This document shows, one piece after another, positions 11,860 to 62,545 of a DNA stretch of 64,000 bases. This DNA is from Prorocentrum cordatum (Eukaryota; Sar; Dinophyceae; Prorocentrales; Prorocentraceae). Position numbers and translations under genes: made by a program. The notes under the pieces are model-generated. The model saw only the letters and a program-made list of their open reading frames with translations, did no database searches and was not told where the DNA came from. Location of the stretch: positions 616,879-680,878 of the forward strand of contig CAUYUJ010022415.1 in the NCBI GenBank assembly GCA_963575745.1, written 5' to 3'. How positions within the stretch are numbered: position 1 is the first letter of the stretch; every line of letters starts with the position of its first letter.

Positions 11860-12113
11860 AAGTCGAAAGTGAGCCTGGTAGCTCAAATATGGCATATAGC
11901 TTGGCAAATTGCATCCATCGCTCTGCTGTGAAGGTACAGTATAAGGGGTGGATGAGTAAGATAGGATAAGATCGATGTAATGATCTTTCCAGCACATAGC
12001 GAACACTCGCGGTGTCCGGGCAAATAGGGCGCGCGTGCCTTGGGCCAAAGGCAACGGCGCGCGAGCTATGCTCCCGATACTGTAACATCTCCCAAAGAGC
12101 TACCCTTAAAGTC
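11860..12113 (-). repeat. 3' LTR of the copia-type element
   Basis: 254 bp direct repeat of 27555-27808 with 5 substitutions. Neither end shows the usual TG...CA; on the plus strand each LTR instead starts and ends with AAGTC. The fragments of open frame through it are the same in both LTRs and are not separate genes. Confidence 0.95.
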
Positions 12114-12373
12114 GGGAGGGGAGGAGACGGAGAGCATAGTCGCACGCAAAGATCGCGCGCACGACTGTTTGCAAAGAAAAGAAAACAGTGCGTACAGTCT
12201 GGTCAAACACCAGACTGTAAGGCGAGTTTCCTCGCAAAGTATTTCACGCAAATACAGGACAGCCCCTTCAAACAATGAAGGGCTATCGGCTCAGTTAGAG
12301 GTAAGCCAAAATTAGGCCATACCTCACCAAGCAAATGTGTATTAAGGCAAAGAGCCTGAGTTGTACGAAGCCG

Positions 12374-12387
12374 GCTCGTTGCCAGGC
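12374..12387 (-). repeat. Imperfect GNRA-type hairpin (chimeric arms)
   Basis: On the sense strand the 5' arm is GCCTG and the 3' arm CGAGC around a GCAA loop. Each arm matches a different perfect copy (GCCTG/CAGGC and GCTCG/CGAGC), so it pairs poorly. Non-coding. Confidence 0.5.
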
Positions 12388-12399
12388 GTGAAATATAAG

Positions 12400-12413
12400 G
12401 CTCGTTTCCGAGC
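12400..12413 (-). repeat. GNRA hairpin, GCTCG stem, GAAA loop
   Basis: Perfect 5-bp stem. Lies downstream of the RNase H stop codon, so it is outside protein-coding sequence. Confidence 0.9.
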
Positions 12414-13006
12414 AGCTAAAGGGGCGCCTTTATAGTAGGCGCCCGTGCTGGCAAACTGGACCGCGAGGGCAACAAGGACAGACTACAATTGATTAGACTT
12501 AGGTTTGTCTCTGTCCTCGGGACCCCGAAAGGGAACAAATTGCTTCACGTCATACTTAAATGACTGAGTGCCTGACATCACTCCCAGAAGCAGCTCCCGA
12601 TCGATGCTTCCCTTTGTATGTCCATCTGCGGTCATATCCCTAGTATCACACCATTGCACATCATGTACTATACCTATATCCATGAGCTCACGTATCCAGC
12701 TGATATGTCCAAGCAGAGTCCGTTATGTTGGTATTTTGAGATCCCTGCTTGATAAAGATTTGTAGACGGACTCGGCGTCTATGGTAAGAGAGACTTTGAT
12801 AGCAAGGCCTCCAACTTCGCGCATGTCTCGTAGTTGTCGTGGAGTCAAAGCCCCTGCCTTGAGCTCGTGGAGAGTAATGAGCGTAGGGTAACACTCATCA
12901 AGGTTATGTGCGGCTGCAAGTGCCTCCGCAGCATAACTGGACCTCACCTGTAATCGGTGTGATTTGCATAGTCCGTCACAGAGGTGAACGACGGACTTGC
13001 CTTGGG

Positions 13007-13020
13007 GCGAGTTTCCTCGC
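13007..13020 (-). repeat. GNRA hairpin, GCGAG stem, GAAA loop
   Basis: Perfect stem inside RNase H; read in the main frame as R-G-N-S-P. Confidence 0.95.
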
Positions 13021-13793
13021 CGTAGTACGTTGGCCCCGCGCATGCCGTAGCCCTTGGTCTCGTCATCCTCCTCCCCGGTAAGCTTCCGATACCCCGAATC
13101 GCTATGGATGTCAACTTCATTCGTCGGCTTCATCCGAGGGAAGGTGATGCGTTTCGGACTGCTGATCAGCTTTCGCGTCACAGCATTCAAACGTCTGACT
13201 TGCAAATTGGTGGGCTCTTGAATTTTCTGAAGAGAGACCACATATACCATAAGCCAGATTTGGGTAAGAAGGGCATAGGCGAGGGCTCCTCGCAGGCTGA
13301 CAAACATGTCGGTAATGAGATTCGCGGCTTTGGCGTCGGCCGCCGCTCCTGTAAGTTCTGGGTGTGTGATAGGACGTAGTTGTTTAATATACTCGTCCTG
13401 GTCCATGATCACATCTCCCTGATCATTCTTAGTGTAGCGAACGGCGCAGTTCGTATATGTGTGCTTGTTGAGCTTGCATGTGCCAAATACCTTTTCGACA
13501 CGTTGTACATAGTCGTCTATATTTTTCTCTAGACCTGTCATGTTAATATCATCGACATGTTTTGCCGTCAGAAGGTCTTGGCTGAATTCAAATTCAGGAT
13601 CGTAACTGGTCGGTGCGAGTCCTATAGCTCGTGTGGTCGTACGAAGTTTGAGAGAGAACGCTCTTGGAGCGTCCTTAGTACCCGTTCCTGGTTTGAGGCA
13701 TCTAAGACAGTGTCGACTTTCGTCGTGGGATGAGAAGCCGGGTAAGGTACGAAGTACCTGAGCGCTTCCTGGTGGAAGAGTAAAGCAAACCAT

Positions 13794-13807
13794 GCGAGTT
13801 TCCTCGC
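13794..13807 (-). repeat. GNRA hairpin, GCGAG stem, GAAA loop, alternative frame
   Basis: Identical 14-mer to the copy at 13007 but read as G-E-E-T-R, inside the conserved RT block before FTLPPG. Confidence 0.9.
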
Positions 13808-14431
13808 CAGTGGCATGGGCAAGTTCCTCATAGGTCAAACCTTTTAGGAACGCCTTATCGATATCCATGGATGCTAAGATCCACTCTGGATGACATGCCG
13901 CTTCACTTGCCAGGAGTCGTTGGGACTGCCTTCGGGCGGTTCCCGAGAATGTTTCCACATCAAAAGCCTCAGTATCCATAAATCCACGAAGGACCAGTCT
14001 GAGACGAATGGTTTTAACGTTCTCGGTACCCATCTTTACGAACTTCCACTTGCATACGTATCTGGATGTCATGATGTTGGAAGCTTTGGATAAATCGTAC
14101 ATCTCAAAGCATCGGGTATCAATCCAGATTTTGAGCTCAGTATATAAGGCTTCACTAACCTCCTTTGGATGTGCTGCTACGTCGGCTTTGGTCAGTAGAT
14201 CATCTTCTTTGACGACCGCAACACGTTTAGCAGCAGAGAATACATATACTCTCATCGTTGCGACCATATCGGTATCGAGCTGTGCAAGTTGAGTCTGACC
14301 CAACACTATTTTTGACACTTCTGATGTAAAGCATAGTTCAACGTAAGGACCGTATTCATCACTGTCTAGAGAGTAGCTCTCGTCGGTTGTGTTCGAACAA
14401 AGAGATACTAGACAGGACTCACATGATTTCG

Positions 14432-14445
14432 GCTCGTCTCCGAGC
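14432..14445 (-). repeat. GNRA hairpin, GCTCG stem, GAGA loop
   Basis: Perfect stem; read L-G-D-E-P in the linker before RT. Confidence 0.9.
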
Positions 14446-14692
14446 ATATCTGATGATGTAATATCATCTTCGTCCGCAAATGCTGAAACCAAAACACATT
14501 GGTCGGGCAGCATAGTTGTTGGGACGCAATAAAGATAATCATCGGTAATCGTCGTAGGATGAAGGTCCATACGTAGCTCGTCGTACCACTCTTCCAGCAT
14601 CATAGCTTCGATATTGTGTTCCTCATTTTCCTCATAGATTGTCGACAGACGGCCTTCGCTCGGCGATGAAGCATCTGGTGTGTCTGGAGAAG

Positions 14693-14706
14693 GCCTGTTT
14701 CCAGGC
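14693..14706 (-). repeat. GNRA hairpin, GCCTG stem, GAAA loop
   Basis: Perfect stem; read P-G-N-R-P in a Ser/Pro linker. Confidence 0.95.
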
Positions 14707-15099
14707 GACTCGTGTTCTCCAGACGTGTTGCTTGGATGCTGATATTTAGCCAAATCGTCGTGAAATCCTAAGGAAGGGACACGTGAAGTCAAGCATTGAA
14801 TAAGTCTGGAGTGAGTGCTACCAGTGATCTGAGAAATGTTTAAGCCAGTGCCCACACATTCGTAATAGTGGAACGCCGGGCTGATGTCGTTGTCATAGTG
14901 GATCAGCGTAGACCCGGTGGCGTACTTTACTGCAGGTAGGCTTGACACACTCTTAGCCAATCGAACTGCTACTACATGTTCTACTCGGAAGTAATTTCGT
15001 ACGAGATACTGTAGTGCTAAGTGTACGCGCGGGTGAAACTTGCTGTCGTCTGACAGATTAAGGTTTCCCTTGTAATCGGGGATATACCCGAAAACTTTG

Positions 15100-15113
15100 G
15101 CAGGTTTCCCTGC
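15100..15113 (-). repeat. GNRA hairpin, GCAGG stem, GAAA loop, alternative frame
   Basis: Perfect stem, same 14-mer as the Q-G-N-L-P copies but read A-G-K-P-A. Confidence 0.9.
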
Positions 15114-15402
15114 GCTGAGATGTGCCACATAAGCAAGGACGGTTTGCATGGCCATATTATCCATGCCAAGTTCCCGTGTGAGGAGACATTCGATGTATAG
15201 TGCGTGACGAGCATCAGGATACATCACAATTACCTCACGAGATCCTGCCTTGACAACAATATGTCCTCTTTCAGGCACATTTCGGATCACCGGGAATGGG
15301 CCGTTCCAGCCTCCATGGTCGTCCTTGGTGGCAGTAGGTCGGTGGTAGTCGACCAAATCCCCTGATGAGTAGAGGCGAGCACCATCAGGAGTCGTCTTAG
15401 CC

Positions 15403-15893
15403 CTAAGAGCCCGATTTGTCTTGGCTTATAGCTTCTAGGCTGACTTCCCTTACACGACGTTCTCGTTCGTGTCCTGAAGTCTCGGGTCCCTTGGGAAAGT
15501 CAAGGGTATCGAGATCAGGAAGGAAGGAGGGCTGACGTCCTGTGTGTGCCTGATATGGCGATACTCCGTTATAAAACGTAAACGCATTAGTAACGAAGAT
15601 GCCTTCCGCCAATACTCTAGTGAATACAACAGGGATGTTGTGTCTATTCAATTCTTCCTCAATCATGTGGAGGACGCCTCTGAGAATGCCGTTTCGTGAC
15701 TCAATTGAAGTCGCGCGTTGGCCAGGTGCTCGGATGCGAAGTTCCGTGCCCTTATTGGCCATCATGGTTTAGCGGCATCGTTATTCAGGGCGCCTTCTCC
15801 GTCTGAGTATAAAACTTTGAAGGGTCCGTGATAGGCAATCCAGCAATAGTGGTAGGCGTCGATGATAGCGTCACGTTCTCTGTCGGAAATTTC
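15403..15893 (-). pseudogene. Copia integrase catalytic core, frameshifted
   Basis: Integrase inserts the element cDNA. A stretch after the stop at 15893 encodes VLYSDGEGALNND (second catalytic Asp) in a frame different from the preceding ORF. The frame at 15403-15765 then carries SIESRNGILR (catalytic Glu), followed by VLAEGIFVTNAFTFYNGVSPYQA, a typical copia integrase end. The first Asp lies in the upstream ORF (EMDLMFYKKRTIFHIMD). The core is therefore spread over three frames and cannot be read as one protein without recoding. Confidence 0.8.
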
Positions 15894-18217
15894 TAGGCCT
15901 GCTGCCAGGCGAATACAAGATCCATAATATGAAATATGGTCCGTTTCTTGTAAAACATGAGGTCCATTTCCCCTTCATCGAGCCAGTTACCAGGAAGGCT
16001 CACCGATGGTAGCGTTGAGTTTCCTGGACGTTCCCATGCTCTACATTCCCGACAGGTATCGCAGACTTCCTTGATCATGTTCAGTCGAACGTTATCAAGC
16101 CCCACCTTTTCGAGGATTAGCCTCATCTTTGGCTCCTTCGCATGATACCATCGCAGATGCAGTTTTCGGAGTTCCTTTTTCACGACATGAGGTTCGTGAC
16201 TACGGAGACTCTGTAGACTGTGTTGGATGTCGAATCTCGTCCAGTCAGGTAGTCGTGGAGCCCCAGAGCCGGTGGAGGCAAGAGGGTTCCTTGTAGCTCT
16301 CCGTAGTTGGTCCCCTGTGTTAACTGCGTCTGGAGGTGGTGGTACGCCTTGTAGACGGCCGCGGCGGGCCGCTACCTGTGGCACTTCGCTAGAAGACGCA
16401 GAAGGCGTGTTTCCACGCTCGGGGGCGTCTCGTAGCATGTCGTAGCTGCTGGCACCAGATGTCGGATCGACGTTGCCGAAGGATCGTGGTCGCGGTGGCC
16501 TGGCGCGTGCGCCTTGACGGCCACCTGAAGCTGAAGCTTGGCCCTCACCAGGTTTAGGTAAGGGTTTCCACCAAGCTGGCACGGTTTTGCCTTCGGGGTC
16601 GTGGTCGTCTGGTAGTTTAAATGGTTCAGCAAAACGACATTTACCAGGTTCGGTATCGAGGTGGTTCTTAACACCCTTGCTTCTCGTAAGATCCCTCTGA
16701 CATGCTGGACATGGCCAATATACAGAGATGGAATCATGATATTTGCACTGCGTAGGGTCTCTGTTATGCCTCGGACTGTCCTTTCGGACATTGTCGATGC
16801 ATGCCGGGCAAGTAGCCACCTTTGGGATGATACGATCACCGATGCGTCTCATACCTTCGCCTGGTTCAGCTTGATCGGGAAGGTCTGTAGGATAAGCATG
16901 CGCGGTACTTATGGGCGCGTTTCCGCGCGTGGTGTCAATGGCTTTCGACAGATATACAGCTTCCACGAAGGCAGACTGCAGTCGTCGGGTGTATTTTTGT
17001 GCCAGTGAAAGCTCGATATTGCACGGTTGTGCGTGCACCTGCTGACCGTTACACTTGAGTCGCTCAAAGGGTTTAAGAATTGTCTCGTCGTTGCTGGTGA
17101 TATTTGCCGGCTTCTTAATATAGTCACCAGTCGTGTCTTTAAGTCCCGTAGCGCATTGGTGGATGCGCACGGTTGTAATGTGTGGTCGGTTGGCAAGCTT
17201 CTTCCATGGAGAAATATCATCTACCCATGTTCCTGTAGGTTGTTCGCGTATAAACCACCTCTGAGAGTCATCTTGGGTTACAGCAATTTTACCACAATAA
17301 GTTATGTGTAGTAAGTCTTCTTTATGGTGCTGTTCCCAAGTGTTGTAGTTGACTTTGTAGTTGTAGTAGGATGGTAGTCCTGTGGTGCGACAGCTGGGTT
17401 GCAGCATGGCAACTCGTACGTAGCATATAGCAAAGTAATGGTCTATAACCTGCTGCACCGAGGGGTCTCCCAGGTCGACATATGTAGTCTTGTCCAAGTT
17501 GCCGCCTGAGGAAAGTCCCCTTGAGAAGGCAAGCTCTGAGATGCCACCCTCACCGCCACAAAGCTCCAACATATCCACGCAGTTGTTATGGCCATAGCAT
17601 AGTGTAGCAACTATGCTGTATATGTTAGCGTGTGTGTCGGGCATAGATGTGGGGAGGGTAAGGAACAGGTCATCGTCCTCGTCGGAGCTTATCAGCTCAA
17701 CAGGGACGTCAGTACTCCAGGTTGCCATAAGATCCTGTCCGAGTCCTGGCAAGTCGTCGCCGCAATCGTCATTTCCGTCTTCAACGTGCTTTTTAACGCG
17801 GCGAGGCTTGATGCCTGCTTCCTTTTCGGCTTTGAGCCTCTCCTTCTGTTTTATGCGCGATTCAGTGGGTAAAGCTTGCTCGTCTTGTTCGTCGGTCTGT
17901 GTACTCATTGTCGTGGTTGAATGGGTACATGCGTCAATCGCCAGAGTCGGGAGGGGGGGAGAACAGTCATCTATGATGACGCGTCGATGCTTCTGTGGTG
18001 ATTGAGTCGGCTCGTTTCCGAGCAAGACCGGTTCCTCGGGTTGCCAGTACAACCGAGTACTGATGTTGGCAACCCCTGCAGGTAATGGTGCATGCCAATC
18101 ATATCCTGTTGGTTGATCGGTAACTGAGATATCCTGAATAACCGTATTGGTATCCAGGTTGATTGTTACACGTCGGATGACTTCAGACCATTTTGGTCCT
18201 CCTTTATTAGTCGTCAC
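15893..18217 (-). CDS. Copia pol 5' part: methyltransferase-like domain, zinc-binding region, HHCC integrase N-terminus
   Basis: 774 codons. From about residue 215 the ORF has MLELCGGEGGISELAFSRG, like the SAM-binding motif I of class I methyltransferases. At about residue 277 comes QPSCRTTG, which fits the Pro-Cys motif of cytosine-C5 methyltransferases, and then a conserved REQPTGTWVD. Cytosine methyltransferase domains inside dinoflagellate copia elements have been reported, and this block agrees, though I cannot confirm catalysis. Next come CPAC...H...C and CPAC..D...H pairs resembling zinc fingers, a long Pro/Arg/Ser linker, and LHLRWYH...CDTCREC, the HHCC GAG-pre-integrase zinc site, leading into the integrase core. 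The N-terminus is in a different frame from the upstream ORF, so expression would need a frameshift. Confidence 0.8.
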   Translation of the reverse strand: MTTNKGGPKWSEVIRRVTINLDTNTVIQDISVTDQPTGYDWHAPLPAGVANISTRLYWQPEEPVLLGNEPTQSPQKHRRVIIDDCSPPLPTLAIDACTHSTTTMSTQTDEQDEQALPTESRIKQKERLKAEKEAGIKPRRVKKHVEDGNDDCGDDLPGLGQDLMATWSTDVPVELISSDEDDDLFLTLPTSMPDTHANIYSIVATLCYGHNNCVDMLELCGGEGGISELAFSRGLSSGGNLDKTTYVDLGDPSVQQVIDHYFAICYVRVAMLQPSCRTTGLPSYYNYKVNYNTWEQHHKEDLLHITYCGKIAVTQDDSQRWFIREQPTGTWVDDISPWKKLANRPHITTVRIHQCATGLKDTTGDYIKKPANITSNDETILKPFERLKCNGQQVHAQPCNIELSLAQKYTRRLQSAFVEAVYLSKAIDTTRGNAPISTAHAYPTDLPDQAEPGEGMRRIGDRIIPKVATCPACIDNVRKDSPRHNRDPTQCKYHDSISVYWPCPACQRDLTRSKGVKNHLDTEPGKCRFAEPFKLPDDHDPEGKTVPAWWKPLPKPGEGQASASGGRQGARARPPRPRSFGNVDPTSGASSYDMLRDAPERGNTPSASSSEVPQVAARRGRLQGVPPPPDAVNTGDQLRRATRNPLASTGSGAPRLPDWTRFDIQHSLQSLRSHEPHVVKKELRKLHLRWYHAKEPKMRLILEKVGLDNVRLNMIKEVCDTCRECRAWERPGNSTLPSVSLPGNWLDEGEMDLMFYKKRTIFHIMDLVFAWQQA
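16405..16418 (-). repeat. GNRA hairpin, GCGTG stem, GAAA loop
   Basis: Perfect stem; read R-G-N-T-P in the Ser/Pro linker. Confidence 0.95.
16915..16928 (-). repeat. GNRA hairpin, GCGCG stem, GAAA loop
   Basis: Perfect stem; read R-G-N-A-P. Confidence 0.95.
18010..18023 (-). repeat. GNRA hairpin, GCTCG stem, GAAA loop
   Basis: Perfect stem; read L-G-N-E-P. Confidence 0.95.
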
Positions 18218-18230
18218 GTAGTGACGGATG

Positions 18231-18929
18231 TTATGGTCTGTACGCGTATACGTATTTTAAGTATACGGGCACGTTTCCGTGCGTGGTGGTGCTCCCCAGG
18301 ATGTTGTCGTTCAAGTGACGGATGAGTGTAGTACGTGTCTGAGCTCGCCATTCAGCATGCCGTACTGTATGGCCGTACCAATCCAACACATGTTGTGGTA
18401 TTGCCTGCTTACAGGTACATGCCCACAGCTTCGAGCTAATCGGTATTGATGATGCTACCTGCATATAAGTACCGCTTGGTGTACTGTCTTGCATATTGAA
18501 CCGAATACCGAAATGACACAAACGCATCCGTATTACTGACAACTTTAGATCTTCCAGAGTATCACGTACTGGAGATAATTTCCAAACATATCCTGGGGGA
18601 CCAAATATTATGATCTTCATGCGGAGTTTCTTGACTTTTATCAATAGGTTCTGGATACGTGACCAATGTGGGGCCACTCTCTTTCCTGGAGTTCTTACGT
18701 ACCAGTCACCCGCAGTACTGGTCCATATGAGAGTGTAATCTCCACTGATCACCGCACCTAGGTAGTGTGTGCCCACGCTTGTCATAAGTTCGTTGTGGGA
18801 AATACGATCACAAATATAACCTCGTGCGCGGAGGTCGGCACATGCCTCCCTCGTATCTTCAATGACAAAAGCCCTCTTACTAAGGCAGGTTACCCCGCTG
18901 TCCTTGTTACCCCCCGGCTTTTCAGCCAA
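18231..18929 (-). CDS. Conserved domain of dinoflagellate copia pol, function unknown
   Basis: 232 codons from the first Met. The same frame continues upstream through the TGA that ends the KptA ORF, so it may be reached by readthrough. Visible blocks are DLRARGYICDRISHNEL, LIWTSTAGDWYVRTPGKR, KIIIFGPPGYVWK, RMRLCHFGIRFN and QHVLDWYGHTVRHAEWR. A segment with this layout recurs just before the methyltransferase-like block in dinoflagellate copia polyproteins as I remember them. Its short hydrophobic strand plus FGPPG could be part of the same Rossmann-like fold, but that is inference. The frame ends at a TAA at 18231-18233, and the next ORF is in another frame. Confidence 0.7.
   Translation of the reverse strand: MAEKPGGNKDSGVTCLSKRAFVIEDTREACADLRARGYICDRISHNELMTSVGTHYLGAVISGDYTLIWTSTAGDWYVRTPGKRVAPHWSRIQNLLIKVKKLRMKIIIFGPPGYVWKLSPVRDTLEDLKLSVIRMRLCHFGIRFNMQDSTPSGTYMQVASSIPISSKLWACTCKQAIPQHVLDWYGHTVRHAEWRAQTRTTLIRHLNDNILGSTTTHGNVPVYLKYVYAYRP
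18269..18282 (-). repeat. GNRA hairpin, GCACG stem, GAAA loop
   Basis: Perfect stem; read H-G-N-V-P near the end of the ORF. Confidence 0.95.
18885..18898 (-). repeat. GNRA hairpin, GCGGG/CCTGC arms, GTAA loop
   Basis: Five pairs including one G-T (G-U in RNA). Read in the third frame as S-G-V-T-C. Confidence 0.7.
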
Positions 18930-18968
18930 CAGGCAAGACGACGAGGGGGCGACGTCGCCCTGCCATCT

Positions 18969-21900: not shown

Positions 21901-23870
21901 TTTCTCGTAGCCATAGCGGACATTGCTCCCTGGCCTGCGGCCCAGGGATCCTGCTGGTATAACCTGTCCGCCAGCTGTTCTACCTGGTCAGGATTCAGCG
22001 CGGCTGCGATCTGATCCAGGTCCGAGGTACTGATGGCCTGCCAAGACACGGCACTAGGCCCTTGGCTTGGGGCACGGCTTGGAGCCGCGCCCCCGGCCTC
22101 ACTCTCGGTAATCATGAAGATCCGATAGATCTCAGGCTGGTTTCCCAGCTGGGTAGGGCTGTAGTGGTCCCCAACTTCTCTGTGGAGGTAGCCCATAGGG
22201 GGGTCAACGCCCCCTTGGTCTCGGGACCACTGGTACTTAACGCTGGAAGTACCAACGTCAGCCCACCTATCAGGAGCAAACATCGTTGCGACAGAGACTC
22301 GCGCATGGCGGCTCCCCAAATATTCTGGATTACGCCATTGCCTTCCTGTGGTCAGGTCCTCTACATGAGAGATGTAATACGGTTCAATGATACCGTTATC
22401 TCCCTCGGACAAGAGGACTCCGTTATCGGACCAACAGAACTTCATACCATCTTGTATGGCCTTACGCCAATCTACGAAGATGATGATGTCTGAGTCTGGG
22501 TCCCACCCACTGTTCACGGCACGGCGGCGAACTGTCGGCACGAAGTGAATGTGCGACCGGCCTGTCCCCTTTTTCTTCGTGTTATGCTCAGGTCTACAGG
22601 ACAGGCCGTGCCACATAATCCCTTCGAAGGCGTGCCATCGAGTGCCATGCATAGCAACATCGGGGTATGGGGCCGGTCTCCCGGCAGGTTGGTCGCACAG
22701 CACAATGTAGCTGTACAGCGACCATGGAGCTTTCAATTCCCATGAATGCCCCTGAGAGGCGCGGACGAAGATAGCGGGCTCTCCGGAGTCCCGCATCAAC
22801 ACCTTGAACTGTAGGCGCTGTTTTTCTTCTCCGTCTGGTTCGCGGACATGAACAACTGCCATCATGATGGCTGCTAGTTGGTCAACCGAGCGCCTACATA
22901 GATGCTCGTTGATGGTCTTGGCCTCGTCATATTTTGGATTATACCCAGCGTGTCTTGATTGACCTGTGTTCCACGGATAACGGTCCACGAGTTCCACTAG
23001 GTTAACCCAACCATCATGATCATCGAAAGATTCCAAGCGCCACACAGGATTGTGTTGTTTGTCTGGCGCATGTCTGCATATCCTGCTGAGAGCTTTGCTC
23101 AGCTGTTTGAGAGTATCATTGGATGTGGGAAGGATTCCAGTCTTCCTGCATTCCTTCATGAATGTCTCATCCACCGAGCGTATCGGCGGGAGCTTCCGAA
23201 GCGCAAGTCTATCCCTGATCACATTTGGAGTCCCACTAGTGAAGGACGTGTCACCTGGGTGGTGCAGCTGAACCACCGGCGGGTTTCCCCGCATCGGAAC
23301 CTCTGTTGCTGAGGAGGCTGCGGCTCCAGAAGAGGAGGAAGCTGCGGCGGCAGCGCCTGGCGGGTTTCCCCGCGGAGATGCGCGACTGGCGCTGCCCCTG
23401 ATCTTCGGCGCCCAGGTACCCCTCGACATAGCACCTTCATCGGACCTCCTGGAACAAGCCGCCACAGGCGAAGCTGGCGCAGGTGCATACCCACTGCGCT
23501 CGAAAGCTGCCGCCTTTTTCGCAATGGAGCTGCTGCGACTAGGCGGGCGTCTTCGTTCCTCCATAGGGTCCTGAGGTTGCTGCTTGGGCACAGACGCTTG
23601 TGTAGGAGTTGTGCCAATCGGCGGCCTCGGAGTTTCAGTTCGAGGCACCTCCATCTGCACGTCTGGCCCAGGGTCCTGAGGGCTCGTCTTCGGTTTCGGC
23701 ACCGAGGACGGCTTAGGTGTCGGGGGTTCACTCTTGGCCTTCGAAGTTAGTGGGAGTGGGGGCCTCGTAGCCCTCTTCATGTAGATCTTACTAGAATCCT
23801 CCAACATCTTGCGAGTTGCCTCGCGAGTGCGGTCTTCTGCTGTCCGCATGCGCTCCTCGTCCTCCGCCAC
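18969..23870 (-). CDS. Retrotransposon polyprotein with KptA/Tpt1-like, RING-H2 and retropepsin-like domains
   Basis: 1633 uninterrupted codons. Residues about 250-510 match the Tpt1/KptA RNA 2'-phosphotransferase layout: LSKALSRICRHAP with DDHDGWVNL; IFVRASQGHSWEL; MHGTRWHAFEGIMWHGL; RSHIHF; and a final SDNGVLLSEG..GIIEPYYIS. In the family this enzyme transfers a 2'-phosphate from RNA to NAD+. The Arg-His, QGHS, HGT and R.HIH signatures are all present, with a small insertion (TKKKGTG) before RSHIHF. Residues about 1000-1055 form a RING-H2 finger (CAVCLEEF...CNHLF...CAIC). Residues about 1327-1425 look like an aspartic protease (ILIDVGSKINIMG, then AILGLDSM), with DVGS instead of DTGS/DTGA. 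Linkers are Pro/Gln/Ser-rich and hold most hairpin copies. Same frame as gag, from which it is separated by one TAA. Confidence 0.85.
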   Translation of the reverse strand: MAEDEERMRTAEDRTREATRKMLEDSSKIYMKRATRPPLPLTSKAKSEPPTPKPSSVPKPKTSPQDPGPDVQMEVPRTETPRPPIGTTPTQASVPKQQPQDPMEERRRPPSRSSSIAKKAAAFERSGYAPAPASPVAACSRRSDEGAMSRGTWAPKIRGSASRASPRGNPPGAAAAASSSSGAAASSATEVPMRGNPPVVQLHHPGDTSFTSGTPNVIRDRLALRKLPPIRSVDETFMKECRKTGILPTSNDTLKQLSKALSRICRHAPDKQHNPVWRLESFDDHDGWVNLVELVDRYPWNTGQSRHAGYNPKYDEAKTINEHLCRRSVDQLAAIMMAVVHVREPDGEEKQRLQFKVLMRDSGEPAIFVRASQGHSWELKAPWSLYSYIVLCDQPAGRPAPYPDVAMHGTRWHAFEGIMWHGLSCRPEHNTKKKGTGRSHIHFVPTVRRRAVNSGWDPDSDIIIFVDWRKAIQDGMKFCWSDNGVLLSEGDNGIIEPYYISHVEDLTTGRQWRNPEYLGSRHARVSVATMFAPDRWADVGTSSVKYQWSRDQGGVDPPMGYLHREVGDHYSPTQLGNQPEIYRIFMITESEAGGAAPSRAPSQGPSAVSWQAISTSDLDQIAAALNPDQVEQLADRLYQQDPWAAGQGAMSAMATRNRQAMQGNLPTSGPARFEPMHGSPTQNMHTPRGMTPFGTPPAQSPFGTPVRPATNGTLMERIAAARAEHSTALLNMMPPGTPTSQQGNLPGTPSHHRAGVPDDYRSRVAAAVQQVQSHNLPRPSGQRWRPAWSWEPEGPNPRDPARQRAFIPAFNAHPSMSQGQRPPPAQMNPPLYPDGSRVPNKFVRELADQRHNLTNVRCSDHSMYPHMAFMPSPTSPEVVAQPTAHSISSGSRGVPDYIRQTHHTQQACFRRRQAVQSVRDQSRAAALDVVRNRGSPLRGNSPAVTPTTSMPNVEVQEVLNPTGAPPSAFMPSETVLERQRRVYPRAADVEVFTGMEDTCAVCLEEFQPRDSVYRLRCNHLFREGCWNSHVVGHVTNQREGDPQQPPCAICRAPGIIASSFPWTGPFSQTPEQSARELRELRSMVEEMTSRMLAMQTVPSQQQGYLPEEVRPPMETGYFDQLIPTTAPQQGNLHDTPQMSPQSGGEAEMSLDPDQLRELRVRHFQNQMDNTHTTFMLDASNPETDSPSLDLSESSVASAATAARAVNISATNEEFEEWLRYRDHITNEGLQDIALHSYLTLIRRTTREQYMSIRDEYANWREERGDHAQHVSYFQYIDLARMAESESHASVMRGNPPGSTTVPRGNPPTDTADTSETVHIKQPSKTFLDDGGNSILIDVGSKINIMGENTSRKFVQAAEAHGRTCTFEPRSRLNINGVGEGSAPADTVGTFSIACEYQGSAQLDSYKTNIVSGCGKDLPAILGLDSMQDKRTIIVLERGQEKLIFPGKGQVKMELPEGSKIMPTTKLPSGHLSIRCDCFGAAGQPASSSSSTSFQTVLTGEPTPAQERNQLQGNLPQGLMETLAKATMRGDNIDDLETFDCFVARTLALHGGGVPMDAVQSRRKIAMGYTNRELHTVSNARSKGALKQLMDNPSMLTAFAEQSASEATARCSAELQHLREAQMLADIVGTSSSS
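19063..19076 (-). repeat. GNRA hairpin, GCGGA stem, GCAA loop, alternative frame
   Basis: Perfect stem with an A-T closing pair; read A-E-Q-S-A. Confidence 0.85.
19328..19341 (-). repeat. GNRA hairpin, GCAGG stem, GAAA loop
   Basis: Perfect stem; read Q-G-N-L-P. Confidence 0.95.
19417..19430 (-). repeat. GNRA hairpin, GCGGG stem, GCAA loop, alternative frame
   Basis: Perfect stem; read A-G-Q-P-A. Confidence 0.9.
19952..19965 (-). repeat. GNRA hairpin, GCGGG stem, GAAA loop
   Basis: Perfect stem; read R-G-N-P-P. Only 19 bp separate it from the next copy. Confidence 0.95.
19985..19998 (-). repeat. GNRA hairpin, GCGGG stem, GTAA loop
   Basis: Perfect stem; read R-G-N-P-P with GGT instead of GGA for Gly. 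Confidence 0.95.
20474..20487 (-). repeat. GNRA hairpin, GCAGG stem, GAAA loop
   Basis: Perfect stem; read Q-G-N-L-H. Confidence 0.95.
20555..20568 (-). repeat. Hairpin, GCAGG stem, GATA loop
   Basis: Perfect stem, but the loop departs from GNRA by one base; read Q-G-Y-L-P. Confidence 0.8.
21047..21060 (-). repeat. GNRA hairpin, GCGAG stem, GAAA loop
   Basis: Perfect stem; read R-G-N-S-P. Confidence 0.95.
21457..21470 (-). repeat. GNRA hairpin, GCTCG stem, GCAA loop, alternative frame
   Basis: Perfect stem; same 14-mer as the copies at 24938 and 27326 but read A-R-Q-R-A. Confidence 0.9.
21635..21648 (-). repeat. GNRA hairpin, GCAGG stem, GAAA loop
   Basis: Perfect stem; read Q-G-N-L-P. 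Confidence 0.95.
21875..21888 (-). repeat. GNRA hairpin, GCAGG stem, GAAA loop
   Basis: Perfect stem; read Q-G-N-L-P. Confidence 0.95.
22136..22149 (-). repeat. GNRA hairpin, GCTGG stem, GAAA loop
   Basis: Perfect stem; read L-G-N-Q-P, just after the KptA-like domain. Confidence 0.95.
22672..22685 (-). repeat. GNRA hairpin, GCCGG stem, GAGA loop, alternative frame
   Basis: Perfect stem inside the KptA-like domain, just upstream of the HGT motif; read A-G-R-P-A. Confidence 0.9.
23279..23292 (-). repeat. GNRA hairpin, GCGGG stem, GAAA loop
   Basis: Perfect stem; read R-G-N-P-P, upstream of the KptA-like domain. Confidence 0.95.
23360..23373 (-). repeat. GNRA hairpin, GCGGG stem, GAAA loop
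   Basis: Perfect stem; read R-G-N-P-P. Confidence 0.95.
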
Positions 23871-23912
23871 ACGTTGAGCCTTTATATCATCCTTGATTGT
23901 CGGTTCTGGTTG

Positions 23913-26900
23913 TTAGGACTGGCTAGAGACGCCAGGCGAGTTTCCTCGCATACTAGGAAGACTGAAGAGCGCGTCTTTCTCTTCCTGGGTCATGGCGACC
24001 AGTCCCCTTGGAACCGGAGTAGGCTTTTCTTCTTCTTTCGGATCCAAGTGGCTCAAGATCCCGAGACGACGATTCACTTCTGCAATTTCTTCCTGTGTCA
24101 TCGGGATAAATTGCGGATGGCCCTCTTTATGAAGGGTTTTGTCCCTGTTGGGGCTCAGGCCTTCGCTGTTGCCAACGGGGCATCCTGGCCTGTGGTTCTG
24201 GAGCGGCTGGGAACAAGGCCCGCATGCTGCGTGAGGCCTATACTGCTTGCGCGCCGCGATAATATCTCGCAACGGAGTCCGCGCTTCTTGAATTTCAGGG
24301 CGGCGGATATTTGTTGCAAGCTGATAGCCTCCGCGAATGGCCTTGCCATCACTGTCCCTATAGGCAGGGTTGCCCTTGCCGAAGGCCGAGTGATCCCCTT
24401 TTCGGCGTCTTGGGTCGTTGTGCGGAAGTAGCTGGCCACCTCTCCTGAGAGCGTGCTCTTTTGGGCCAGCCTGCCTCCAATCACGAGGAAGTCGAGCCTG
24501 TGGATGTGGCTCTTCTCTGACGCGCGTATGGGAACGAGATCTTCTGGTGTTCTCATCAGAAAAAGCTGCCGAAGCAGCAGGAGCGGCACCCGGTGGAGGT
24601 GCCTGAGGAGGCTCCTGTGCGATGCCAGATGGATCGTCCGATGGAGGCAGGTCTCCCTGCTGGGTGGAGCTCGGCGCAAATGGCGCTTGTGCCGATGGTG
24701 ATGATGATTCAGACTCATCAGGATCGAAGTCAACCTCTTCCTCACCATTCACGTCCATCATGAGGATGGTGACGTCATCCTCATCTAACCCGCAACCATC
24801 GCCTTCTACTTCTTCTGATGTCGAACTACCGATGATGATGGCCATTGGCGTATCTGGTACAGGCAGGGTTCCCTGCATAGCCGGCGTCTGTGCGTCGCTC
24901 GGCTGTCCCGGAGTAGGAGGCACCGTTGTCGGCTCAGGCTCGTTGCCGAGCACAGGCTGCCCAGCAATGTTACGCATGGCCGTATGGTTTGGCCTCATTC
25001 CCACCGCCTGGAGACCCCATCCTGGCGGAGGAAGATCACGACCGCGCATAGCAATAGCCATTTCTAGAGCATTACGCCATCTACCACGGGAGTATATCAA
25101 GTGTCTCTGCACGTCCTGAGAATGCACGCTGTCAATGAGAGTCAGAGCTGCCAACAACAGCTCTGAGCTACCGCAAGCATCAGTATCCTGTTCTGTCATA
25201 ATGTCAGCTTCGATATGTTCTTGACTCTCAGGATAACCAGTTATAAGTATCTCATGCATCCTCATGAGGGTCTGCAAAAGGGTGCGTGGTCCATATTCGC
25301 CTGGAGCAAGCGAACCAGGAGGTATGAACGGAGTATCTGGTTCGCCTGCAATGAAGGCCTGAACAAATGCCTGAGACTCCATTTCAATTAAGTCTTCAGT
25401 GGTCTGGGGATATTCTCCCATCAGAGACGGCCTGTTTCCAGGCGGGATTTCGGGCGGAGGTTCGAGGTTCCGTTGAACCTCGGAAGGCGAAGCCTCTATA
25501 GTGGTGTCCTCGTCGTCGCTCTCGTAGGCCATGATGTTGCCTGGGTTCCCGAACATCCAGTCGAAGAAAGAAAGAGGCTGGTTTCCCAGCGTACCGTGTT
25601 CCACGGGAGTGAGCTCGTTACTGCCCGTAACGAACCGGCGGACGTACTCGAGGTAGTACGCGTACAATCCATGACCATACCCCTCGAGCTCGTCGACGTT
25701 GTCCATGCCAACAACCCAAGTGAAAAATATCTGCTCCATAGCCTCAAAGTCCTGGAGGCTCAGATACTCAATGGATGGTTCACTTGAGCCAAAATGGACT
25801 TCGGTCGACCTGCCCTTTCCATTTCCCTTCACTGGACAATCTCGCACAAGATGATCGGAACTACCACATTCATGGCATTTGAGAACCTGGCCGTCTCTAC
25901 CTCGCGGGTTTCCCCGCCTACCTTTACCTTTTCCTGAGGTCTCTCTACGGCCTTTACCACGGCCTTTTCCCCCAAAGAATATCTCATCATGTTGTTCATC
26001 TGAGAGCCTCTGGAGAAATGCCGCGATACCTCGTCCGTTCAACCTCCGACGACCTCGCTTGCCTTTACCCTTTCCTTTAAAACTTCTACGTATCCTCCTT
26101 CTAACACGACGCACTGGTTTTCGTGTGAACCTCCTCCACCTTCGTTTAGCCTGTTGTAATAACCAGAACAAATGCTCAGCACGCTGATTGTCGTTATCCA
26201 TATTCATAATATCTGACCAATCTAAAGCTTCAACACCATCTGATGATATAGTGTCTGTATCGGTGCCGGAGTCGAAATCCTCGTCTCCCAAGGAGGTGGA
26301 TACACCGTCGGTTAGGGGGTTTGATTCCCCCCACAAAGAACGGTGTGGTTGCGGTTCTCTAGAAGGAGGGCTGGTTGCCCAGCTTGGTTGTGATCGATCC
26401 CCTGCTAATAAAGCAGTGGATTCTCCTGGGTCATCGGCCCATATGCTTGAGGGCCCGTTTCCAGGCTGGGCTTCAGTGGTCAAGGTAGTGTAGAAATTTC
26501 CACTACCAGATCCCCTTCCCCTTCCAAACACAGATCCCATGTTACCAGGAGACCGTTCGGATAGGTGGCCTATCGAACGCATCCTCTCCAGCAACTCATC
26601 ATACTGTTGTTGTGTTCGGGGCATTTGGTGATTGAGTGGCTGTAAGAGTTGCATGGCTCGCTGGTTGCCGACGCCTAAGGCGCGGAATAGGATAGTGGTT
26701 AGCAGTTGGAAGTTGGGAAGGTCGAATCCCACCGACTGTGCCTCAAGTCGGGCCATTTCGAATCGGGTAAGGGTGACATCGATTCGTTCCCCGTGAGGCA
26801 CGTGGAAGTCGATGAGTTGTGTGCCGGAAGTGAGCTGTCGCTCATCTTCCAGGCGTTCGAACTTCATGCTTAGGAAGAACATGATGTAGGTCACTGGGTC

Positions 26901-27749
26901 CGTGTGGACCCCATCGATGTCAGCACCATAGTTGATAATGTCAGGTGGTACCCTCATGGCGAGTGTCCTCGCTAGGCCGCCTAGGCCGCGTTGTATTGCG
27001 GCCGCTTGGGCCTGTGGCGTCATACGTCCGCTTGTAACGTTGAGCCATGCGTTGACCTCGTAGATGTACTCACGAAAAGGTACATTACCTTGAGGGTCCC
27101 AATATGGGCCATGCGTTTGCCCATCGGTGCTGTTTTCTCCACGACGCATGTGTCCGATTGCTGCCCCCAGCGCGAACCATCTAATAGCGAAAACGACTAG
27201 CCCGAGAATGTGTAACGAAGGACGGTTATGATGCGCGTTGTCGCGCTGGGGTAGCGCCTTGTCGAGTCTTCGAGGCGCTCTGTCTGGCGGGTTTCCCCGC
27301 CCCTGCTTCAAGTATTGCGCTGTTAGCTCGTTGCCGAGCGGTTGGTGGTAACGCAATGATGAAGCGTATATGGTACCAGTCTGGTCGTTTAGACGTCGTA
27401 CCTCTCGTGTTGCTTCTTGCTCTTGGATAGATCCTCGTAAACGTACTGGGAGTGGTGGCGCAGGGTGGTAAGAAGTCACGGATATCGTGCCGAAGAATAT
27501 GAGGCTAAGAAGAGCAAGAGCTGACCACACGAGAGTGCGGCCAGCTCCGCTACCAAGTCGAAAGTGAGCCTGGTAGCTCAAATATGGCATATAGCCTGGC
27601 AAATTGCATCCATCGCTCTGCTGTGAAGGTACAGTATGAGGGGTGGATGAGTAAGATAGGATAAGATCGATGTAGTGATCTTTCCAGCACATAGCGAACA
27701 CTCGCGGTGTCCGGGCAAATCGGGCGCGCGTGCCTTGGGCCAAAGGCAA
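23913..27749 (-). CDS. gag: Gag polyprotein of the copia-type element
   Basis: The open frame starts inside the 5' LTR and crosses the primer-binding site, so its first part is probably not translated. A more likely start is the Met at 27147-27149 (MRRGENSTDGQ). The Gag core follows: YWDPQGNVPFREYIYEVNAWL, LARTLAMRVPPDII, FERLEDERQLTSGTQLIDF, LTRFEMARLEAQSVG and LLERMRSIGHLSER, a layout typical of dinoflagellate copia Gag. A basic Lys/Gly/Arg-rich stretch precedes one CCHC knuckle, KCHECGSSDHLVRDC, at about 25840-25885. Such proteins coat and package element RNA. The long C-terminal extension (about 600 residues, acidic then Pro-rich) is unusual. It ends in a TAA followed in the same frame by the KptA ORF, so readthrough could give a fusion. 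Confidence 0.85.
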   Translation of the reverse strand: MPLAQGTRARFARTPRVFAMCWKDHYIDLILSYSSTPHTVPSQQSDGCNLPGYMPYLSYQAHFRLGSGAGRTLVWSALALLSLIFFGTISVTSYHPAPPLPVRLRGSIQEQEATREVRRLNDQTGTIYASSLRYHQPLGNELTAQYLKQGRGNPPDRAPRRLDKALPQRDNAHHNRPSLHILGLVVFAIRWFALGAAIGHMRRGENSTDGQTHGPYWDPQGNVPFREYIYEVNAWLNVTSGRMTPQAQAAAIQRGLGGLARTLAMRVPPDIINYGADIDGVHTDPVTYIMFFLSMKFERLEDERQLTSGTQLIDFHVPHGERIDVTLTRFEMARLEAQSVGFDLPNFQLLTTILFRALGVGNQRAMQLLQPLNHQMPRTQQQYDELLERMRSIGHLSERSPGNMGSVFGRGRGSGSGNFYTTLTTEAQPGNGPSSIWADDPGESTALLAGDRSQPSWATSPPSREPQPHRSLWGESNPLTDGVSTSLGDEDFDSGTDTDTISSDGVEALDWSDIMNMDNDNQRAEHLFWLLQQAKRRWRRFTRKPVRRVRRRIRRSFKGKGKGKRGRRRLNGRGIAAFLQRLSDEQHDEIFFGGKGRGKGRRETSGKGKGRRGNPRGRDGQVLKCHECGSSDHLVRDCPVKGNGKGRSTEVHFGSSEPSIEYLSLQDFEAMEQIFFTWVVGMDNVDELEGYGHGLYAYYLEYVRRFVTGSNELTPVEHGTLGNQPLSFFDWMFGNPGNIMAYESDDEDTTIEASPSEVQRNLEPPPEIPPGNRPSLMGEYPQTTEDLIEMESQAFVQAFIAGEPDTPFIPPGSLAPGEYGPRTLLQTLMRMHEILITGYPESQEHIEADIMTEQDTDACGSSELLLAALTLIDSVHSQDVQRHLIYSRGRWRNALEMAIAMRGRDLPPPGWGLQAVGMRPNHTAMRNIAGQPVLGNEPEPTTVPPTPGQPSDAQTPAMQGTLPVPDTPMAIIIGSSTSEEVEGDGCGLDEDDVTILMMDVNGEEEVDFDPDESESSSPSAQAPFAPSSTQQGDLPPSDDPSGIAQEPPQAPPPGAAPAASAAFSDENTRRSRSHTRVREEPHPQARLPRDWRQAGPKEHALRRGGQLLPHNDPRRRKGDHSAFGKGNPAYRDSDGKAIRGGYQLATNIRRPEIQEARTPLRDIIAARKQYRPHAACGPCSQPLQNHRPGCPVGNSEGLSPNRDKTLHKEGHPQFIPMTQEEIAEVNRRLGILSHLDPKEEEKPTPVPRGLVAMTQEEKDALFSLPSMRGNSPGVSSQS
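23936..23949 (-). repeat. GNRA hairpin, GCGAG stem, GAAA loop
   Basis: Perfect stem; read R-G-N-S-P, seven codons before the gag stop. Confidence 0.95.
24164..24177 (-). repeat. Candidate hairpin, CGTTG/CAGCG arms, GCAA loop
   Basis: Five pairs with one G-U; the outer pair is C-G instead of G-C; read V-G-N-S-E. Weak or diverged member. Confidence 0.45.
24647..24660 (-). repeat. GNRA hairpin, GCAGG stem, GAGA loop
   Basis: Perfect stem; read Q-G-D-L-P. Confidence 0.95.
24863..24876 (-). repeat. Hairpin, GCAGG stem, GAAC loop
   Basis: Perfect stem; the last loop base breaks the GNRA rule; read Q-G-T-L-P. Confidence 0.8.
24938..24951 (-). repeat. GNRA hairpin, GCTCG stem, GCAA loop
   Basis: Perfect stem; read L-G-N-E-P. 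Confidence 0.95.
25430..25443 (-). repeat. GNRA hairpin, GCCTG stem, GAAA loop
   Basis: Perfect stem; read P-G-N-R-P. Confidence 0.95.
25577..25590 (-). repeat. GNRA hairpin, GCTGG stem, GAAA loop
   Basis: Perfect stem; read L-G-N-Q-P. Confidence 0.95.
25904..25917 (-). repeat. GNRA hairpin, GCGGG stem, GAAA loop
   Basis: Perfect stem; read R-G-N-P-R in the basic stretch before the zinc knuckle. Confidence 0.95.
26370..26383 (-). repeat. GNRA hairpin, GCTGG stem, GCAA loop, alternative frame
   Basis: Perfect stem; read S-W-A-T-S (third frame). Confidence 0.9.
26453..26466 (-). repeat. GNRA hairpin, GCCTG/CGGGC arms, GAAA loop
   Basis: Five pairs with one T-G wobble; read P-G-N-G-P. Confidence 0.85.
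27287..27300 (-). repeat. GNRA hairpin, GCGGG stem, GAAA loop
   Basis: Perfect stem, upstream of the likely gag start, so possibly in the leader; the open frame reads R-G-N-P-P. Confidence 0.95.
27326..27339 (-). repeat. GNRA hairpin, GCTCG stem, GCAA loop
   Basis: Perfect stem in the probable leader; the open frame reads L-G-N-E-L. Confidence 0.95.
27544..27555 (-). promoter_or_regulatory. Primer-binding site for initiator tRNA-Met
   Basis: The minus strand next to the 5' LTR reads TGGTAGCGGAGC, complementary to a tRNA ending GCTCCGCTACCA. U72 with discriminator A73 implies an A1-U72 pair, which is characteristic of eukaryotic initiator tRNA-Met, the usual copia primer. It overlaps the last LTR base. 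Confidence 0.8.
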
Positions 27750-27808
27750 CAGCGCGCGAGCTATGCTCCCGATACTGTAACATCTCCCAAAGAGCTACCC
27801 TTAAAGTC
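27555..27808 (-). repeat. 5' LTR of the copia-type element
   Basis: 254 bp, matching 11860-12113 except at 5 positions. It should carry the promoter and R region. The RNA start and poly(A) signal are not recognisable by eye. Confidence 0.95.
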
Positions 27809-58900: not shown

Positions 58901-59046
58901 CAGGTAGCACAAGATGTCTCCAAGAGGCCCCAGCGAGCCCAATATAGTCTCCAGGATGCTTAATCAGAGTGAGGGGGCTGAACCGAACGGTCATTCACTG
59001 TCCCTGGGTGCGTGGCTGAAGTGGAATTTCGCGATGCGGATTCTGG

Positions 59047-59081
<35 letters not shown>

Positions 59082-59102
59082 ATTGTTGTTGTTGTTGTTA
59101 TT
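59047..59102. repeat. (GTT)n microsatellite
   Basis: Immediately upstream of the palindromic satellite. Confidence 0.95.
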
Positions 59103-59117
59103 GGCGACGCTCGCTGG

Positions 59118-62100: not shown

Positions 62101-62545
62101 GTACTCGGGTCCGATTATTCCGATCATCCAAGGATCGGAGTAACCGGATCCGATTATTCCGATCATCCAATGATCGGAGGAAAAGGATCAGATTATTCCG
62201 ATCGTCCAATTGGATTCCCACAGATTCCAAAATGGAGCCCAATACGATCGGAATCCTATTACGCCGATCATCCAATGATCGGAGTAATCGGATCCGATTT
62301 TTCCGATCGTCCAATTGGAATCCCACAGATTCCAAAATGGAGCCCAATATGATCGGAATCCGATTGCGCCGATCATCCAATGATCGGAGTAATCGGATCC
62401 GATTATGCCGACCATCCAATGATCGGAGTAATCGGATCCGATTTATTCCGATCATCCAAAGATCGGAGGAATCGGATCCGATTATTCCGATCGTCCAATT
62501 GGAATCCCACAGATTCCAATATGGAGCCCAATACGATTGTTAAAG
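59118..62545. repeat. Palindromic satellite: 39 bp units in a 183 bp higher-order repeat
   Basis: The basic unit is 39 bp, centred on the BamHI site GGATCC, and nearly equal to its own reverse complement. Three such units plus a variant segment (CCAATTGGAATCCCACAG and GATTCCAAAATGGAGCC) form a 183 bp period. The anchor AATTGGAATC occurs at 59241, 59424, 59607, 59790 and 59973, exactly 183 bp apart. Units become irregular after about 60070 and more diverged after 61650. Because 39 and 183 are multiples of 3 and lack stops in several frames, plus-strand frames up to 964 codons and minus-strand frames up to 500 codons stay open. Confidence 0.95.

Follow-up and report, generated by a model that had tools for sequence, protein, structure and literature searches.

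Ty1 is a retrotransposon of the copia type. The Gag proteins of Ty1 and Ty3 are thought to recognise cis-acting sequences in their genomic RNA (PMC4974528). In RNA viruses such as MS2, dispersed packaging signals consist of numerous short stem-loops with a common recognition motif, distributed along the sense genome (PMC6281560); packaging-signal-mediated assembly with dispersed stem-loops is described likewise for satellite tobacco necrosis virus, parechovirus and hepatitis B virus. Here, we describe a similar arrangement in a stretch of 64,000 nucleotides of the dinoflagellate Prorocentrum cordatum (contig CAUYUJ010022415.1, positions 616,879 to 680,878), hereafter the window. A copia-type long terminal repeat (LTR) retrotransposon of about 16 kb, occupying 27808-11860 on the minus strand of the window (so that its sense strand is the window's minus strand), carries dozens of copies of one small hairpin. 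A preliminary description made from the sequence had placed these hairpins in a single LTR retrotransposon, which proved right; its interval of 12400..27339 was too short for the element (11860-27808) and missed a copy at 12222-12235.

That description knew of no earlier report, and our search agrees: the open-access literature searched (most subscription journals lie outside it) yielded no description of such hairpins in retrotransposons or in dinoflagellate copia elements. The available part of a review of dinoflagellate genomics treats heat-activated Ty1-copia elements and mentions no such structures (PMC11453091).

A paired unit repeated along one strand

Sites were picked by their fixed bases alone, since choosing paired hairpins would have made any measure of covariation circular. 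The strict pattern was GCNNG-GNRA-CNNGC and the relaxed pattern GCNNG-GNNA-CNNGC, each a 14-nt unit with a 5-bp stem. On the sense strand of the element, the strict pattern matched 37 times, which is the total first reported; the 35 perfect stems and two stems with a G-U pair given there become 34 perfect stems, two with one G-U and one unpaired match (12374-12387), and two loops had been entered there simply as others. The relaxed pattern matched 40 times, with 37 perfect stems and 39 paired when G-U is allowed; the loops of these 40 sites are GAAA (25), GCAA (7), GAGA (3), GACA (2), GTAA (2) and GATA (1). Beyond these, four variant units also pair but differ in the loop or close with an A-U pair (27233, 24863, 19063 and 15897). 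The units are listed below in the sense of the element, all on the minus strand of the window; remarks on other copies of the family (C2 among them), on a second family in the genome (family 2) and on a more distant relative (L046) refer to comparisons made further on.

27326..27339, GCTCG-GCAA-CGAGC
27287..27300, GCGGG-GAAA-CCCGC
27233..27246, variant GCGCG-ACAA-CGCGC; GCAA loop in two other copies
26959..26972, GCGAG-GACA-CTCGC
26453..26466, GCCTG-GAAA-CGGGC, one G-U
26370..26383, GCTGG-GCAA-CCAGC
25904..25917, GCGGG-GAAA-CCCGC
25577..25590, GCTGG-GAAA-CCAGC; GCTCG...CGAGC in the C2 copy
25430..25443, GCCTG-GAAA-CAGGC
24938..24951, GCTCG-GCAA-CGAGC
24863..24876, variant GCAGG-GAAC-CCTGC; GAAA loop in three other copies
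24647..24660, GCAGG-GAGA-CCTGC
23936..23949, GCGAG-GAAA-CTCGC; GCGGG...CCCGC in two copies
23811..23824, GCGAG-GCAA-CTCGC
23360..23373, GCGGG-GAAA-CCCGC
23279..23292, GCGGG-GAAA-CCCGC
22672..22685, GCCGG-GAGA-CCGGC; within the Tpt1 domain
22136..22149, GCTGG-GAAA-CCAGC
21875..21888, GCAGG-GAAA-CCTGC
21635..21648, GCAGG-GAAA-CCTGC
21457..21470, GCTCG-GCAA-CGAGC
21047..21060, GCGAG-GAAA-CTCGC
20555..20568, GCAGG-GATA-CCTGC; GCGGG-GAAA-CCCGC in two copies
20474..20487, GCAGG-GAAA-CCTGC
19985..19998, GCGGG-GTAA-CCCGC
19952..19965, GCGGG-GAAA-CCCGC
19417..19430, GCGGG-GCAA-CCCGC
19328..19341, GCAGG-GAAA-CCTGC
19231..19244, GCCAG-GACA-CTGGC
19063..19076, variant GCGGA-GCAA-TCCGC, A-U closing pair
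18885..18898, GCGGG-GTAA-CCTGC, one G-U
18269..18282, GCACG-GAAA-CGTGC
18010..18023, GCTCG-GAAA-CGAGC
16915..16928, GCGCG-GAAA-CGCGC
16405..16418, GCGTG-GAAA-CACGC
15897..15910, variant GCCTG-GCAG-CAGGC; unchanged in three copies
15100..15113, GCAGG-GAAA-CCTGC; orthologous hairpins in family 2 and (one G-U) L046
14693..14706, GCCTG-GAAA-CAGGC
14432..14445, GCTCG-GAGA-CGAGC; GCAAG-GCCA-CTTGC at the same place in family 2
13794..13807, GCGAG-GAAA-CTCGC, in conserved reverse transcriptase (RT) sequence; no hairpin there in family 2 or L046
13007..13020, GCGAG-GAAA-CTCGC; GCGTG...CACGC at the same place in family 2 and L046
12400..12413, GCTCG-GAAA-CGAGC; outside the open reading frames (ORFs)
12374..12387, unpaired match GCCTG-GCAA-CGAGC; outside ORFs
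12222..12235, GCGAG-GAAA-CTCGC; outside ORFs

The outer pairs, the closing pair and the loop ends are fixed, and the inner pairs covary. At 34 of the 37 strict sites (36 with G-U), the two free inner pairs are both of the Watson-Crick kind, where the chance is 1 in 16. In an alignment of the 40 GNNA sites, 99.5% of cells are paired (77.2% in shuffles), the covariation score is 0.55 (0.09 in shuffles) and 43 cells are changed on both sides (10.9 in shuffles). Neither the count of varying pairs (2) nor that of pair types (8) was higher than in the shuffles, and nothing can be learned from the three invariant pairs. In a context of 214 nt, the closing pair was predicted to form with a probability above 0.5 at 33 of the 40 sites (below 0.5 at 7), and at 0 of 40 when the unit was scrambled.

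Sixty dinucleotide shuffles contained a mean of 0.43 5-bp GNRA hairpins (36 observed on the sense strand, 1 on the antisense strand) and none of the strict form, and 60 synonymous-codon shuffles of the ORFs gave a mean of 1.5 strict hairpins and a maximum of 4, against 32 observed. On the antisense strand of the element, neither the strict nor the GNNA pattern matched, so that the restriction of the strict units to the sense strand, as first reported, is borne out; similar counts on the antisense strand or in codon-preserving shuffles, which had been named as outcomes that would speak against the proposed structure, were not found. A search of 11860-27808 with the Rfam covariance models gave no match up to E = 1.

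The rest of the window contains two pattern matches per strand, none of them paired. The earlier statement that no such hairpin lies elsewhere in the window stands for the strict paired form and fails for perfect 5-bp GNRA hairpins in general, which do occur. Three identical GCTCC-GAGA-GGAGC hairpins lie on the plus strand at 1962, 2276 and 2433, spaced 314 and 157 bp apart in a repeated stretch; they have another closing pair and are probably merely repeat copies.

Sequence alone cannot tell plus-strand DNA from RNA, and the structure might act in the single-stranded plus-strand DNA of reverse transcription, or in extruded DNA, rather than in RNA. A one-strand preference for GNRA or GNNA loops is, however, the expectation of RNA recognition, and plus-strand DNA is only briefly single-stranded; we consider a role in DNA very improbable.

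Conservation among copies of the family

Forty-three sites (the 40 less the unpaired one, plus the four variants) were compared by position with three other copies, C2, C15 and C26. With G-U allowed, all pairs are kept at 40 of 42 sites in C2 (one site unaligned), at 38 of 40 in C15 (three not cleanly aligned, one of them with an inserted base) and at 39 of 43 in C26. Eight units are broken; seven of them have lost one pair each, and the unit at 24938 in C2 has changed in several places. Double changes that compensate each other are seen in C2 at 25577 and in both C15 and C26 at 23936 and 20555. Loop changes stay mostly within GNRA, with exceptions such as GAAT, GGCA, GAAG and GATA. At 29 near-identical RT loci the protein is 96-97% identical; 14 of them are on the strand read, and 95 of 98 units are unchanged at seven sites.

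Two diverged copies, whose BLAST pieces are 72-88% alike to the window element, were informative about constraint. For C15 and C26, identity averaged across the 40 GNNA sites is 0.81 in the flanks, 0.99-1.00 in the outer stem and 0.95-0.96 in the inner stem; in the loop, it is 0.975-1.00 at the first and last base and 0.875-0.90 in the middle. The base that follows the unit is C in 35 of the 40 sites, and its identity in these copies is 0.88-0.92, with 0.48-0.55 at the base after it. Third codon positions are conserved at 0.651 and 0.654 in the flanks of the two diverged copies and at 0.993 in the stems.

This last result bears on a protein-level account, in which the units encode a repeated peptide motif ([RQLPH]-G-N-x-P) and pairing is a by-product. 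The codon phase would suit it in part, with 27 of the 40 sites in one phase; however, 10 sites are divided between the remaining phases, and 3 more, including the unpaired match, lie outside ORFs; on these grounds the account was rejected. The constrained third codon positions and the synonymous shuffles also oppose it, and we give it virtually no weight.

Other families and the origin of a site

A second family in the same genome is represented by L045 and L047, which are two copies of one family and are not independent. These loci came from a listing of pattern matches and from a genome search with a metagenomic relative (P0010). The family has a 2199-residue ORF, and its RT ORF protein is about 65% identical to that of the window element. 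Sites chosen by fixed bases are paired in 13 of 13 cases in L045 and 10 of 10 in L047. The loop is GYCA at 9 of the 13 sites of L045 and at 5 of the 10 of L047 (0 of 40 in the window element), and a C follows the unit at 6 of the 13 and 5 of the 10 (35 of 40 in the window element). Thus GNRA, the loop originally proposed, describes the window family for the most part, and GNNA is the better description once family 2 is included. Over a short stretch of family 2 (L045 2924-2967, L047 1359-1387), GCGGA...TCCGC hairpins whose loops are pyrimidines follow one another on the sense strand in 15-nt steps; this looks like a small tandem repeat.

Protein-guided mapping identified hairpins at orthologous places with different inner stem bases in the window element and family 2: AG to GG at 15100, TC to AA at 14432 and GA to GT at 13007. 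The more distant L046 has hairpins at 15100 (one G-U) and 13007 (GT) and none at 14432. Related elements with unpaired changes at such sites would have told against the structure; these show paired changes, and together with the antisense and shuffle counts they uphold the original proposal of a structure in RNA (or single-stranded DNA) based on compensatory changes. Most sites are not shared: 6 of 9 window sites that map into L047 lack a hairpin there, and 0 of 6 that map into L050 have one. L046 contains 13 sites (4 perfect, 11 paired with G-U) and L050 contains 10 (7 perfect, 10 paired with G-U). Among the loci from the pattern listing, L001-L008 contain no paired unit, and L048, L049 and L051 contain one each with no sign of an element.

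At the level of the whole genome, GCNNGGAAACNNGC gave 18,674 + 19,450 matches, against 3,675 + 3,744 for the reversed pattern, and GCNNGGYCACNNGCC gave 9,075 + 9,167, against 2,807 + 2,727; many of these matches come from repeated copies of the same elements and cannot be counted as independent. Nine of the first 28 listed matches of GCNNGGAAACNNGC were paired. The mispaired pattern GCAGGGNRACGAGC, whose paired partner is GCAGGGNRACCTGC, gave 459 + 458 matches (control 330 + 337).

How might a hairpin arise? The site at 13794 lies in a conserved RT stretch, which reads TGEETR in the window and TGE-x-E-R in 29 of the 36 relatives in which it could be located. Eighteen relatives align there without a gap, and family 2 and L046 lack a hairpin at the corresponding DNA position; therefore, as judged for this site only, comparison of the sequences indicates that substitutions within a conserved protein stretch built the hairpin and that it was not inserted. 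This origin argues against mobile mini-hairpins, one form of the view that the units were spread by a mobile sequence or by a palindrome-perfecting mutational process. Many stems do recur (GG, GA, AG, TC), as that view would have it. However, the loop, the outer pairs and the position are kept between diverged copies, and a palindrome-perfecting process would not maintain a GNNA loop on one strand; we regard spreading of either kind as highly implausible.

Conserved stems and loops are also what one would expect if the hairpins acted without protein, their GNRA loops docking into receptors elsewhere in the RNA and so compacting the 16-kb genome, and GGAAAC is a classical docking loop. With consensus patterns written as local hairpins, the 11-nt GAAA receptor (CCUAAG...UAUGG, 3-40 nt between the halves) was found 0 times on either strand of the element, and the IC3-type receptor 0 times. 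Moreover, GYCA loops, as in family 2, are not standard docking loops, and we consider protein-free docking improbable.

Because the sites pair, exceed the shuffles, have conserved third codon positions in their stems, are re-paired at orthologous places and, at 13794, arose by substitution, the hairpins are, to judge from the sequences, RNA structures under selection with family-specific loops. On the same footing stand the pairing itself, the selection on pairing, the restriction to the sense strand and the family-specific loop and flank.

Relatives outside the genome were compared as proteins: the commonest codon phase predicts which amino-acid pairs should stand across G-N or G-D. Forty-five RT homologues were found among 8000 candidates scored, and viral contigs scanned with the RT protein and with an RT alignment yielded no relatives. 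A narrow motif ending in P is absent from 38 of the 45 and occurs once in each of 7, of which 3 are consistent with pairing. For G[ND] motifs in 70 relatives, 35 of 70 are consistent against 19.6 expected (P = 5e-5), and 26 of 54 against 15.9 when one motif is taken per context cluster (P = 0.0016). The clearest case is the metagenomic P0051 (2159 residues), in which 7 of 8 motifs agree, all 7 with D, which would mean GNGA loops. Several results weigh against this test. G[HY] motifs, corresponding to loops of the form GNCA or GNUA, give no signal (2 of 12, 2.2 expected); G[ST], a control, likewise exceeds expectation (24 of 45, 13.0 expected; 13 of 34, 6.6 expected, without the conserved LGTEL/LGTER motif); and several relatives disagree (P0055 1 of 6, P0057 0 of 3, P0059 1 of 5). 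The remaining control motifs are not clearly raised (lowest P 0.09). Because of the G[HY] and G[ST] results, the amino-acid-level pairing signal in relatives is no more than suggestive. With it, the loop and 3′ flank are GNRA followed by C in the window family, frequently GYCA in family 2 and, going by the proteins, perhaps GNGA in a third.

The element and its coding content

The features of the element, all on the minus strand of the window, are as follows.

27555..27808, 5′ LTR, 254 bp by BLAST (self match of 98.0% to 11860-12113); no hairpin inside
23913..27749, ORF with a Gag-like part, comprising an arginine-rich stretch and a CCHC zinc knuckle near residue 624; the open frame overlaps the 5′ LTR
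18969..23870, ORF with a Tpt1/KptA RNA 2′-phosphotransferase domain, a RING-like finger (Pfam) and an aspartic protease motif (by reading)
15893..18217, ORF with an integrase-like zinc-binding (HHCC) part, by sequence reading
12723..15356, ORF with a copia-type RT (Pfam) and RNase H (by reading)
11860..12113, 3′ LTR, 254 bp by BLAST (self match); no hairpin inside

Five of the 254 positions differ between the two LTRs. A short target duplication, CTTG, is legible on either side of the element; the LTR pair is that of a Ty1/copia element. At the end of the 5′ LTR (27541-27555, minus strand) stands TGGTAGCGGAGCTGG, which resembles a primer binding site for an initiator-Met-like tRNA. The RT is of the RVT_2 type (PF07727, E = 1.3e-8, 35.1 bits against a cut-off of 31.6). 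For the integrase-like part, the Pfam scan of the window gave no integrase match; a counterpart precedes the RT in the family 2 ORF, and PF00665 is listed for the relatives P0066 and P0071.

The Tpt1/KptA domain lies at 22371-23153 on the minus strand (PF01885, E = 9.7e-24) and resembles PDB chains 7yw3 and 7yw2, named tRNA 2′-phosphotransferase 1; by eye, the motifs around the conserved Arg/His look retained. The RING models that match the finger downstream of it (E = 1.3e-5 and 8.9e-5) both score below their cut-offs. A homologue search with this ORF returned a single match only. An RNA-modifying accessory domain inside the coding region of an LTR element seems unusual, and the literature searched, including a paper on accessory domains, does not mention a Tpt1/KptA domain in LTR elements.

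Outside the element, a large tandem array occupies 58998-62552, with a period of about 183 bp and several copies 93-99% identical; long frames are open on both of its strands.

What might read the hairpins

Because loop and flank differ between families in one genome, we infer a reader that travels with the element. By analogy with viral packaging signals, the hairpins may be dispersed assembly or packaging signals read by the element's own Gag, an explanation to which we give an even chance; the preliminary description had proposed no function. First, the genomic RNA carries about 40 copies of the 5-bp GNNA-tetraloop hairpin, from near the 5′ LTR through to the 3′ untranslated region. Second, these would be recognised as RNA by a protein evolving with the element, the likeliest candidate being Gag, with its arginine-rich stretch and zinc knuckle. 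Third, Gag would touch the RNA weakly at many points, and these contacts would both label it as cargo and help to fold the unusually long 16-kb genome and package it into particles. The element shares with the viral systems multiple stem-loops on the sense genome (their folding being predicted) and a motif held in common among variable stem bases. The hairpins span 12222 to 27326 with a mean spacing of 387 nt and are not confined to the ends of the RNA; the spacing is somewhat more even than random (coefficient of variation 0.73 against 0.96, one-sided P = 0.024), which fits packaging weakly.

Four observations weigh against a role in packaging by Gag. The zinc knuckle scores below its Pfam cut-off (zf-CCHC, E = 0.001, 19.5 bits against 20.8). 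The capsid-like region of the Gag-like ORF has no Pfam or PDB sequence match, and its structure model is poor (predicted local distance difference test score, pLDDT, 38.5). The pieces of family 2, L046 and L050, which are not wholly element, contain 10-13 sites each, against 28-31 in comparable 10-kb pieces of the window family. Finally, Ty1, the best studied relative, needs only its ends: 380 nt from the 5′ end together with 357 nt from the 3′ end are enough, and up to 5 kb of the interior is dispensable (PMC4974528). The hairpins here run throughout the interior.

The main rival is another RNA-binding protein, of the host or encoded by the element (e.g., the Tpt1/KptA or RING part), that would control export, stability or translation of the mRNA. 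The hairpins do belong to the mRNA strand, where they occupy both coding and 3′ untranslated parts, and the Tpt1/KptA domain would act on RNA. However, some 40 sites are many for a regulatory signal, and a host reader common to the families should favour one loop, which is not the pattern seen in this genome; on balance, we consider this rival rather unlikely. Returning to Gag, we suggest, tentatively and with some doubt, a stronger form of packaging by Gag: each family would write its own multi-site RNA code, in which the loop and 3′ flank are read by the Gag of that family and serve as both an identity tag, by which families in one nucleus would be kept separate, and a folding scaffold for 16 kb.

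Comparison with known systems

Retroviral psi hairpins have short stems with GNRG or GACG tetraloops and are read by the zinc knuckles of nucleocapsid; they are few and lie near the 5′ end. The element resembles them in its short stem and in a tetraloop that starts with G, and differs in having about 40 hairpins along its length. In lambdoid phages, boxB is a 5-bp GC-ended hairpin with a GNRA-like loop, bound by the arginine-rich N peptide; it has a pentaloop, occurs once or twice per genome and serves antitermination. The 5-bp GC-ended hairpin and a putative arginine-rich reader are alike, whereas the pentaloop, copy number and antitermination role are not. Organellar and rickettsial palindromic elements are small hairpins that occur repeatedly inside ORFs as insertions, in contrast to the testable RT site of this element (13794), which arose by substitution.

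The closest likeness is to the packaging signals of RNA viruses, from which the present case differs in that the carrier is an LTR retrotransposon, the binding of Gag is putative and a stricter 14-nt architecture is visible in the sequence itself. Dispersed viral signals have usually been inferred from SELEX (systematic evolution of ligands by exponential enrichment), density in cryo-electron microscopy or weak motifs; here, the signal is explicit, with conserved loop ends, invariant outer pairs, free covariation inside and dozens of copies in at least two families. RNA structure strongly constrains coding sequence in this element, third codon positions in the stems being almost frozen. Families with different loops offer natural pairs for mapping the co-evolution of protein and RNA, and the idea that many weak RNA contacts drive assembly becomes directly testable; if true, it would extend from RNA viruses to LTR retrotransposons.

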